NCBI GenBank assembly: GCA_021795465.1
Contig: JAJYPK010000021.1
Location: 1-33,604, forward strand
DNA: 33,604 nucleotides
Reading direction: 5' to 3'
Source: Bacillota bacterium
GTDB lineage: Bacteria; Bacillota; Sulfobacillia; Sulfobacillales; Sulfobacillaceae
The notes under the pieces are model-generated. The model worked only from the letters and a program-made list of their open reading frames with translations, made no database searches and was not told where the DNA came from. The position numbers and the translations under genes are program-made. This document shows positions 1 to 31,469 of this stretch, piece after piece (position 1 is the first letter of the stretch; each line of letters opens with the position of its first letter).

Positions 1-649
1 ACGCATCATCGACAAACTTAGGAAATTGTCCGGTGCCCACCATCGATTCGTAGTTGACGAGATAGGGTGGGGCGACTTCCACATATCCAGCAGCCCGCGC
101 ATGATCCAGCATGTAATTGGCCAGTGCCCGGGTCAATCGCGCTCCCGATCCCTTAAACACGGTAAACCGCGCACCCGAAATCTTTCGAGCTCGCTCAAAG
201 TCAAATATTCCGAGCCTTTCTCCCAGATCCCAATGGGGTTGGGCGGGATAGGAAAAGGTCGGAATCTGCCCTTCGCGGTGGATCTCTAAATTATCGTCAG
301 CCGTACTCCCATCGGGGACTTCCGGGAGAGGCGTATTAGGGATAGTGAGGAGAAAGTGCCGCAATTCCTCATCCAGTGGAGTCAGAGAGGCTTCCAAGTC
401 GCGAATACGGTCGCCGACCTCTCGCGTCTTCGCGATCAGTTGGCTGGCGTCTTCGCCGCGCTTCTTTTTCGCCGACACCTGTTCCGAATTTTGGTTGCGC
501 TGAGCCTTTAAGTTCTCGATTTGGCCTAAAATCTCCCGGCGAGTTTCATCTAATTGTCGCACCTTTCCCAAATCGATGGCGACGTGTTTTTTAGCAAGCA
601 AAGTTTCGATTTCTTCCGGATTTTGACGGATCCGTCGAATATCCAGCAT
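1..649 (-). CDS. serS: Serine--tRNA ligase, N-terminal part (cut by window edge)
   Basis: Seryl-tRNA synthetase charges tRNA-Ser with serine in the cytoplasm. About 216 residues are visible, starting MLDIRRIRQNPEEIETLL, the usual SerS opening. Residues about 27-100 form the charged, heptad-like stretch expected for the tRNA-binding coiled-coil arm, and the start of the class II catalytic core follows (ending near YLVNYESMVGTGQFPKF). Catalytic motifs 2 and 3 lie beyond the left edge. The ATG is preceded by GGGGAGGA at a good distance. The gene begins 48 bases after the mtnA stop, with no terminator between them, so both should be on one transcript controlled by the serine T-box upstream of mtnA. 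Identity is secure; only the 3' end is missing. Confidence 0.95.
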   Translation of the reverse strand, partial: MLDIRRIRQNPEEIETLLAKKHVAIDLGKVRQLDETRREILGQIENLKAQRNQNSEQVSAKKKRGEDASQLIAKTREVGDRIRDLEASLTPLDEELRHFLLTIPNTPLPEVPDGSTADDNLEIHREGQIPTFSYPAQPHWDLGERLGIFDFERARKISGARFTVFKGSGARLTRALANYMLDHARAAGYVEVAPPYLVNYESMVGTGQFPKFVDDA

Positions 650-697: not shown

Positions 698-1747
698 TCA
701 AGATCCAAGATCTTGGTGGGGATTCGCCAGGGAATGAAGGGACTGTTCCAAAGGTTCGTAAGCCACCCCTCTTTCCGTGATAATCGCGCTAATCAAGAAA
801 TGTGGGGTCACATCAAATGCCGGGTTATAGACTGGCATCGCGTTCGGCGCGATATTCTTCCCTAAGATGCTGCGCACTTCGTCAGGACTTCGTTCTTCAA
901 TCGGAATCTGGTCCCCATGCGGGGTATCCGGGTCAAATGTGGAGATAGGTGCCGCGATATAGAATGGAATCGCATGGTAGCGAGCAAGAACCGCTAATCC
1001 ATAGGTTCCGATTTTATTGGCGGTGTCCCCATTGTGGGCAATCCGGTCCGCACCCACAATCACTGCATCTACTTGCCCCAACGCCATCAGATGGCCGGCC
1101 ATACTATCGGTCACGAGACGAGCTGGAATCCCATCATGATGGAGTTCCCAAGCCGTTAATCGAGCCCCTTGCAACAATGGACGGGTCTCATCCACCAAAA
1201 CTTCCCGGATCCACCCTTTTTGGTGCAATGACCGAACGACACCGAGTGCTGTACCAAATCCCGCCGTCGCCAACGATCCGGTATTACAATGGGTTAAGAT
1301 TCTCACGGGACCCGCGAAAAGTCCCGCACCCCATTCACCCATCAACCGATTATCTTGTTGGTCTCGCATTTTAAGCGTATCGGCCATGGTTCGAAGCCTG
1401 TCTCCCACTTGGTTGGCATCGAGGCCGTTGATTTCGGAAAGCGCCCCATCAATCGCCCAGGCGAGGTTGACCGCGGTCGGTCGCGCATGACGAATTGACT
1501 CGGCAGATTGTCGTAATTGGCCTAAGAAATTCTCCTGGTCATGCAGTCGCTGCGCTTCCAACCAAAGCCCGTATAGTCCGGCGATGCCGATGGCCGGAGC
1601 TCCTCGAATCGCCAGCGTGACAATAGCTTCTCGTACATCACAGCCTGTGGTGCACGTGATCCACTCTACGCTAGCTGGCAGTTTCCGTTGATCCAAAATC
1701 TCGACCACATCACCGACCCGGCGAATCGGTTCAATGTCTGCTGTCAT
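698..1747 (-). CDS. mtnA: S-methyl-5-thioribose-1-phosphate isomerase
   Basis: MtnA isomerises methylthioribose-1-phosphate to methylthioribulose-1-phosphate in the methionine salvage or DHAP-shunt pathways. The 349-residue protein has the family signature with the catalytic cysteine in THCNTGSLATAGFGTALG (Cys154) and the catalytic aspartate in VGADRIAHNGDTANKIGTY (Asp234). It belongs to the eIF2B-like superfamily, but these residues favour MtnA over an eIF2B or ribose-1,5-bisphosphate isomerase paralogue. An upstream ATG at 1816 is open in frame but lies inside the T-box. The ATG at 1747 has GGAGGA seven bases ahead and is preferred. It is the first gene after the T-box and is followed by serS. 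Sharing a serine-tRNA-sensing leader with serS is unusual for a methionine salvage gene. Confidence 0.92.
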   Translation of the reverse strand: MTADIEPIRRVGDVVEILDQRKLPASVEWITCTTGCDVREAIVTLAIRGAPAIGIAGLYGLWLEAQRLHDQENFLGQLRQSAESIRHARPTAVNLAWAIDGALSEINGLDANQVGDRLRTMADTLKMRDQQDNRLMGEWGAGLFAGPVRILTHCNTGSLATAGFGTALGVVRSLHQKGWIREVLVDETRPLLQGARLTAWELHHDGIPARLVTDSMAGHLMALGQVDAVIVGADRIAHNGDTANKIGTYGLAVLARYHAIPFYIAAPISTFDPDTPHGDQIPIEERSPDEVRSILGKNIAPNAMPVYNPAFDVTPHFLISAIITERGVAYEPLEQSLHSLANPHQDLGS

Positions 1748-1761
1748 ATCGATTCCTCCAT

Positions 1762-1975
1762 AAAAAATACCCATCCCTAAAGTAATGGTTAGGGACGAGT
1801 GTTCTCGCGGTGCCACCCTATTTGACGCCTGACGGCGCCCTCTTTAGTAGAGGATAACGGCTCTGTCCGTCGGCAACGGCCGAACTCTCAAGAAGTGGAA
1901 TATCAGAGAGCCATGACTGGGTTTCACCGTAATCCCCAGCTCTCTATACACTGCATCTCTGGATTTCTTCTGTCA
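1762..1975 (-). ncRNA. T-box riboswitch, serine specifier (UCC)
   Basis: On the minus strand the T-box core AGGGTGGCACCGCG is present at 1819-1806. It is followed by a terminator hairpin at about 1799-1770 (TCCCTAA pairing with TTAGGGA, extended by wobble pairs) and a run of six U at 1767-1762. Upstream, Stem I shows perfect arms AGAGAGC/GCTCTCT (1945-1905), with the conserved distal GGTGAAAC segment inside. The base of Stem I is AGAAG pairing with CTTCT. By analogy with the B. subtilis glyQS leader, the specifier is the triplet just before ACUUCUUGAG, which is UCC (1899-1897), a serine codon. Uncharged tRNA-Ser should therefore stabilise the antiterminator and turn on mtnA-serS. The assignment was made by eye; a covariance search was not run. 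Confidence 0.9.
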
Positions 1976-1989
1976 TCAAGTCTTGTGGT

Positions 1990-2021
1990 TTTATATTGAC
2001 GGGTGTCCCCTTGAAAGTCAA
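1990..2021 (-). promoter_or_regulatory. Possible promoter of the T-box mtnA-serS operon
   Basis: On the minus strand a TTGACT -35-like hexamer (2021-2016) is followed by an A/T-rich AATATAAA stretch (about 1997-1990). The exact -10 is unclear: spacers of 17 to 20 bases fit different weak hexamers. The position is right, since the T-box transcript would start about 10-15 bases later. Confidence 0.4.
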
Positions 2022-2077: not shown

Positions 2078-2114
2078 CAAAAAGACGAGGGCCCCAGTAT
2101 CAGCGCGGGGGCCC
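2078..2114 (-). terminator. Rho-independent terminator after pdxT
   Basis: On the minus strand GGGCCCC and GGGGCCC arms (2114-2108 and 2095-2089) enclose a short loop, and a run of five T follows a few bases later (2083-2079). It lies about 55 bases after the pdxT stop and should end the gyrA-pdxS-pdxT transcript before the T-box promoter. Confidence 0.75.
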
Positions 2115-30713: not shown

Positions 30714-30789
30714 GCGGAAGTAGTTCAGTTGGTAGAATGTCGGCTTCCCAAGCCGAAGGTCGCGGGTTCGAATCCCGTCTTCCGCTCCA
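30714..30789 (+). tRNA. tRNA-Gly (anticodon CCC)
   Basis: A 76-base cloverleaf with acceptor arms GCGGAAG and CTTCCGC, D-arm GTTC-AGTTGGTA-GAAT, anticodon arm CGGC-TTCCCAA-GCCG with anticodon CCC reading GGG, T-arm GCGGG-TTCGAAT-CCCGT and encoded CCA. It lies alone, between purA and the aldolase. Confidence 0.95.
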
Positions 30790-30827: not shown

Positions 30828-31469
30828 ATGCGAGAGACTCTACTGGCCATAGCTCACCAATTTTCTCAGGACCAACTATCCCCGGGTACCACGGGCAATC
30901 TTAGTGTGCGTGACGAAGATGGGCGATCTTTTTGGATAACGCCGTCGGGCATTCCATTCGCCTCTCTGTCCCTAGATGATTTGGTCCGGGTCGATGTAGA
31001 AAGCACGCGGGTCATCGACGGAACGCGCGCCCCTTCCACCGAGGTGCCGCTACATAGTATGACGTATCAGCGCCGCACCGATGTTCACGCGATTGTTCAT
31101 GCGCATTCACTCTATGCGACCATCTTTTCCACCCTTAATCGTCCCGTGAAGGCGGTCCATTACCAGTTAGCTCGGGTTGGAGATGAGGTGCCTTTGGCCG
31201 ACTATGCAACGTACGGGAGTAAAGAATTGGCTAATCAGGCAACCAACGCGCTTGGAAATGGTGGCGCGGTGCTGTTGAAAAATCATGGTTTGATGACGGT
31301 GGCCGCCACTTTGAGTGAGGCATATCAGTACGCGCTAGATGTGGAGTGGGTCGCCAAACTCTACTTTATGGCGCTTCAAATTGGGGAGCCGGACGTGCTA
31401 ACCCATGATGAAATGGCGCGTGTTCGGCGTGAACTTGACCACTATGGCCAATCTTCCGTTACACCGTAG
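30828..31469 (+). CDS. Class II aldolase/adducin family protein
   Basis: The 213-residue protein belongs to the zinc-dependent sugar-phosphate aldolase/epimerase family (FucA, AraD and relatives). It keeps the phosphate-binding GTTGNLSV and TPSG segments, the catalytic Glu72 and metal ligands His91, His93 (HAHS) and His153 (LKNHG), all matching L-fuculose-phosphate aldolase positions. The exact substrate cannot be told from sequence; candidates are fuculose-, ribulose-, methylthioribulose- or 5-deoxyribulose-1-phosphate. GGGGGGAG lies ahead of the ATG. Its neighbours give no pathway clue, but mtnA is in the same window. Confidence 0.85.
   Translation: MRETLLAIAHQFSQDQLSPGTTGNLSVRDEDGRSFWITPSGIPFASLSLDDLVRVDVESTRVIDGTRAPSTEVPLHSMTYQRRTDVHAIVHAHSLYATIFSTLNRPVKAVHYQLARVGDEVPLADYATYGSKELANQATNALGNGGAVLLKNHGLMTVAATLSEAYQYALDVEWVAKLYFMALQIGEPDVLTHDEMARVRRELDHYGQSSVTP

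Follow-up and report, generated by a model that had tools for sequence, protein, structure and literature searches.

T-boxes normally control genes whose products make, import or charge the amino acid that is sensed. At least 29 of 34 Firmicutes genomes retain T-box control of the group of ligase genes to which serS belongs (PMC2494555). A serine T-box is also reported before serine biosynthesis genes in Paenibacillus polymyxa (PMC8002221). MtnA in turn is known from the DHAP shunt for 5'-deoxynucleosides, which consists of MtnP (or MtnK), MtnA and Ald2 and returns DHAP (PMC10986504, PMC6302742). T-box control is not mentioned in these two papers on the shunt.

The locus analyzed here lies in a window of 33,604 nucleotides (the whole stretch of DNA under analysis) and carries a predicted serine T-box in front of mtnA and serS. 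It shares with the Firmicutes leaders of serS a UCC-type specifier, a UGGC sequence for G73, a terminator/antiterminator pair and a downstream serS, but here mtnA comes first, and related families add mtnP, an aldolase or serA. With the leader reported in P. polymyxa and with a second T-box of the same genome (contig C235), it has in common the tRNA sensed, the UCC/UGGC combination and transcriptional control, whereas those two leaders precede an aminotransferase and serA rather than mtnA and serS. The difference from the DHAP shunt lies in the control, since MtnR and CRP are reported to regulate the cluster described in E. coli (PMC12632272). What is new is thus the predicted regulon, a serine T-box over a gene for salvage of SAM by-products, conserved over the family and part of the class. 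The literature searched, with thin coverage of subscription journals, held no report of a T-box before mtnA.

That a serine T-box switches mtnA and serS together by transcription attenuation is the best explanation of the locus and, in our view, very probably correct. Leader, specifier, discriminator match, terminator/antiterminator, gene order and conservation are based on sequence and comparison; from them we infer the response to serine starvation, the co-transcription and a physiological reason. The features of the locus are as follows.

2079..2114, minus strand: probable terminator of pdxS-pdxT (GC-rich inverted repeat and T run, read from the sequence)
1993..2021, minus strand: candidate sigma-70 type promoter, TTGACT (2021-2016), 17 nt, CAATAT (1998-1993), from comparison
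1788..1985, minus strand: T-box leader with Stem I, Stem II/III region and antiterminator with the T-box sequence (RF00230 match)
1967..1971, minus strand: 5' strand of the basal Stem I helix, AGAAG, pairing with 1895-1891 (compensated variation among 19 leaders)
1897..1899, minus strand: predicted specifier triplet UCC (Ser; tRNA-Ser anticodon GGA), followed by A1896 (invariant UCC plus A or G in 19 of 19 leaders)
1891..1895, minus strand: 3' strand of the basal Stem I helix, CUUCU (comparison of 19 leaders)
1809..1815, minus strand: T-box bulge UGGCACC (from sequence), its UGGC complementary to the GCCA 3' end of tRNA-Ser (G73)
1762..1800, minus strand: intrinsic terminator, 12 bp, U6 (terminator scan; hairpin 1800-1769, U6 run 1767-1762)
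698..1747, minus strand: mtnA, S-methyl-5-thioribose-1-phosphate isomerase, 349 aa (TIGR00512, NF004326)
2..649, minus strand: serS, seryl-tRNA synthetase, N-terminal 216 aa (TIGR00414, E 2e-52; incomplete, cut by the contig end)

The original prediction had proposed a covariance search with the Rfam T-box model as a check. Run permissively, this search returned a full-length match to RF00230 (model positions 1-219 of 219) at 1985-1788 on the minus strand, with 92.2 bits and an E-value of 7.3e-21. The score is 0.8 bits below the curated Rfam cut-off of 93, and therefore the leader is absent from a default Rfam scan of the window, which reported two tRNAs only and no T-box. A whole-genome search recovered the same leader at E 1.0e-20, as one of 13 T-boxes in total. 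Folding of the leader strand was 3.6 sd below dinucleotide shuffles. The antiterminator reads AGGG-UGGCACC-GCGAG...CUCGUCCCU, and the segment CUCGUCCC is common to antiterminator and terminator, so that the two hairpins are mutually exclusive; their predicted folding energies are -16.8 kcal/mol (terminator) versus -10.1 kcal/mol (antiterminator hairpin). A full-model match, a UGGNACC bulge and an antiterminator overlapping the terminator place the leader, at sequence level, among the transcriptional class I T-boxes. The T-box core, terminator and Stem I noted originally were thus recovered as the RF00230 match, the U6 terminator and a covarying basal helix. T-box and terminator together occupy 1985-1762 on the minus strand; the extent first given, 1762-1975, had the correct 3' end, and the 5' end lies ten bases further out.

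The candidate promoter before the leader has a poor -10 element (3 of 6 positions matching the consensus) and was not reported by a consensus promoter scan. Each of the 19 related leaders, however, has a TTGACT/TTGACA box some 200 nt upstream of the core. Further upstream, the inverted repeat at 2114-2079, not reported by the terminator scan, probably separates pdxS-pdxT from the T-box unit. Taken as a whole, the RNA itself is predicted to be an ordinary serine T-box with attenuation of the usual kind. Transcription would start just upstream of the leader. With tRNA-Ser(GGA) in the charged state, formation of the terminator (1800-1762) would be expected, and mtnA and serS would stay low. Uncharged tRNA-Ser(GGA) would pair with UCC in Stem I through its anticodon and with the UGGC bulge through its free GCCA end; the antiterminator would then form, and both genes would be transcribed.

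The first gene after the leader was assigned to mtnA, as originally proposed, by equivalog matches to TIGR00512 (425.7 bits, cut-off 279) and NF004326 (426.7 bits, cut-off 271), from which isomerase activity is predicted. It starts with ATG at 1747, preceded by a Shine-Dalgarno sequence GGAGG at 1759-1755. The gap to the co-directional serS measures 48 nt, and nine related genomes show an overlap of 8 or 14 nt between the two genes; because of this close spacing and overlap they are almost certainly co-transcribed. A T-box or promoter of its own for serS, which would speak against joint control, was looked for: permissive scanning of 1600-2200 gave no second T-box, none was found elsewhere on the whole contig, and the promoter and terminator scan recognised neither element between mtnA and serS. 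Joint control of the two genes by a serine-type T-box, the central claim of the original prediction, is thus supported by the aligned UCC, the UGGC-G73 match and the co-directional, often overlapping genes. The missing part of serS was traced to contig C141, which starts with an overlapping serS stretch and carries the C-terminal part, followed by tRNA-Ser(UGA) (1035-1119), tRNA-Ser(GCU) and tRNA-Arg. The first bases of this contig (L073), TCCGATCT, stand directly before the serS sequence that overlaps the window start and resemble a sequencing-adapter remnant, which would be a likely explanation for the contig ending within serS.

Gene order and T-box were compared in related genomes, another check proposed at the outset. 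Among the genomes searched, 34 belong to the family; mtnA adjoins serS in 26 of them, and a T-box core with UCC precedes mtnA in 19 of those 26. The commonest order is pdxS-pdxT-[T-box]-mtnA-serS-tRNA-Ser(UGA). The same kind of locus occurs in 'Bacillota bacterium isolate DBS1-3.bin87' (JAJYHT010000023.1, L092). A scan of named genomes for mtnA yielded nine loci. Among them, mtnA of Sulfobacillus benefaciens (L093) is 63% identical, a hint that the family is Sulfobacillaceae; its contig begins inside mtnA, which leaves the leader region outside the sequence, and serS was not found on this piece.

Of 19 genomes outside the family, 11 have mtnA next to serS, and these represent 11 different families of the class (G042, G043, G045, G048, G049, G050, G053, G054, G057, G058 and G059). 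Their operons vary in content: (i) T-box-mtnP-mtnA-serS-tRNA-Ser in G049, G053, G054 and G058; (ii) T-box-class II aldolase-mtnA-serS in G050; (iii) a T-box before a 210-aa protein (no family assigned), mtnA and serS in G059; (iv) a T-box motif alone, without an Rfam match, before mtnA-serS in G042; (v) serA-mtnP-aldolase-mtnA-serS in G043 and (vi) pdxS-pdxT-aldolase-mtnA-serS in G048, both with no T-box seen on the sequence pieces examined, the aldolase of G048 being identified by eye from a translated gap. In G057 (L127, 429-5700), a single T-box precedes aminotransferase-serA-mtnA-serS-tRNA-Ser, such that the serine-synthesis and mtnA-serS operons are fused and synthesis, charging and mtnA stand in one operon. 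The set can be read as a record of stepwise evolutionary change in the gene content of a T-box operon.

A further 84 genomes with both mtnA and serS, drawn evenly from the phylum and including three from the same class, showed no adjacency of the two when coordinates were compared by eye. A phylum-wide habit of pairing was therefore rejected. Presence in the family and in 11 other families, together with absence from these 84 genomes, indicates an ancient pairing, characteristic of part of the class. Two explanations had been offered originally for the position of mtnA, its insertion between leader and serS or a link between serine/one-carbon supply and thioribose salvage. A recent insertion is rejected by the occurrence of the pair in 26 family genomes and 11 further families; the link, for its part, is something we infer from the content of the operons.

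The strongest alternative to such a link is that mtnA is a passenger, i.e. that the T-box serves serS and induction of mtnA is physiologically meaningless. In Firmicutes it is usual for serS to be preceded by a serine T-box (PMC2494555), the T-box of G047 directly precedes serS, and in seven genomes in which mtnA stands elsewhere (G009, G017, G034-G036, G040 and G041) no T-box motif was seen before it. We give this explanation slightly better than an even chance. However, the pair has been retained in the family as well as in 11 others, and the variable genes of the operons come either from a single pathway (mtnP, class II aldolase, mtnA) or from serine synthesis (serA, aminotransferase), which is beyond the expectation for accidental neighbors. 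In addition, mtnP-mtnA of G060 adjoin tRNA-Ser genes even without serS. In that genome (L135, 2919-5072), mtnP-mtnA are followed by tRNA-Ser(UGA) and tRNA-Ser(GCU), with no T-box seen; its serS is located elsewhere and divergent.

That mtnP, serA and a class II aldolase recur in the T-box operons favors, without proving, a functional link between serine supply and thioribose salvage. One-carbon units and cysteine derive from serine and feed methionine; DHAP is a precursor of 3-phosphoglycerate and thus of serine. The most likely reason for joint control would be that serine shortage also limits methionine, so that recycling or disposal of SAM by-products by MtnA would be raised alongside SerS. 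A stronger version, in which the serine T-box regulon of the class was purposely extended to this salvage or disposal (mtnP, aldolase, mtnA), we put forward tentatively and regard as rather unlikely; serine starvation would then signal a short supply of methionine, one-carbon units and carbon, and MTA or 5'-deoxyadenosine would be recycled to DHAP plus a methylthio or aldehyde product. A conserved serine T-box with mtnA first, and with serA, mtnP or an aldolase in sister operons, makes the connection between tRNA-Ser charging and SAM by-products testable.

Gene content of the genome bears on which pathway MtnA would serve. It contains mtnP (contig C46) and two class II aldolases, one in the window and one on contig C133, neither of which reaches the equivalog cut-off for a particular substrate; the match to ARD is weak and sub-threshold, with no clear ARD gene. 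Together these fit the shunt better than classical aerobic methionine salvage. The aldolase in the window (30828-31469, plus strand) is of the fuculose-/ribulose-1-phosphate type and lies just after tRNA-Gly(CCC) (30714-30789); it is a candidate for the step after MtnA. Likeness to the DHAP shunt is greatest in G043, where mtnP, class II aldolase and mtnA occur together, and partial in G048 and G050, the aldolases being assigned by family only.

Several family members (G004, G006, G007, G014 and G016) have mtnA-serS without a recognisable T-box, and control of the pair by a T-box is therefore not universal in the family. In G016 (L136, 2900-3250), mtnA-serS lack both pdxS-pdxT and the T-box in front of them; the sequence found in their place looks, by eye, like the 3' portion of a group II intron, and Rfam reported nothing there. 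In genus g7, the gap before mtnA has kept the terminator, with cores reading UGAUAUU (L035) and UGGUACU-ACGAG (L036) and no Rfam match; the T-box of L035 thus appears decayed and the core of L036 altered. L035, where UGAUAUU replaces UGGNACC, provides a precedent for reading the leader in the window as a decayed, non-switching T-box of which only the terminator functions, but this is highly improbable, as every core part is intact here: UGGCACC, antiterminator, terminator, a K-turn-like GAUGA and the specifier.

For the specifier triplet, the Rfam alignment of the single sequence was ambiguous between UUC and UCC. We therefore searched 19 family leaders for a triplet separated by one base from the helix at the foot of Stem I, the position also used by the placement rule of TBDB (PMC7778990). 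In 19 of 19 leaders, UCC followed by A or G stands directly before this helix, which varies with compensation (AGAAG/CUUCU, GAAGG/CCUUC, AAGGAAAG/CUUUCCUU and CGAGAAG/CUUCUCG); for L027 the script picked a second nearby UCCG, and the UCCG at -81 fits equally. With UCC(A/G) beside a covarying helix throughout, the frame question is settled by comparison in favor of UCC as the predicted specifier. The alignment of specifier loops suggested in the original prediction thus gave no non-serine codon and upheld the UCC first read there. A phenylalanine specifier (UUC), which also falls near the specifier columns in the Rfam alignment, is exceedingly improbable and was rejected by the comparison of relatives, since only UCC is kept in 19 of 19, the UUC frame reads AUC, GUC or UUC among them, tRNA-Phe with A73 is unable to pair with UGGC, and the downstream gene is serS.

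The discriminator base agrees with serine. Both annotated tRNA-Ser genes of the genome, (UGA) and (GCU), end in GCCA, i.e. have G73, to which the UGGC bulge is complementary; its tRNA-Phe has A73. A UGGC bulge was found in only 2 of the 12 T-boxes of the genome with a recovered core, namely in the mtnA leader and on contig C235. The latter has a UCC-A specifier and lies upstream of a class V aminotransferase gene, then a phosphoglycerate dehydrogenase-like gene (serA, named for its resemblance to PGDH proteins from related operons). The cognate tRNA-Ser(GGA) was not found in the draft genome. Its pattern was matched in 18 of the 21 genomes searched (18 of 20 relatives), and therefore an assembly gap is the simplest and likely reading. 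A relative of the same genus has tRNA-Ser(GGA) with G73, and the tRNA-Ser(GGA) genes of relatives end in GCCA. In genus g5 and in G001, the bulge reads UGGU, requiring a G-U wobble with G73. Another variant of the bulge occurs in the genome itself, where the T-box before an ileS-like gene (L002, contig C66) has UGGA, versus UGGU in most others.
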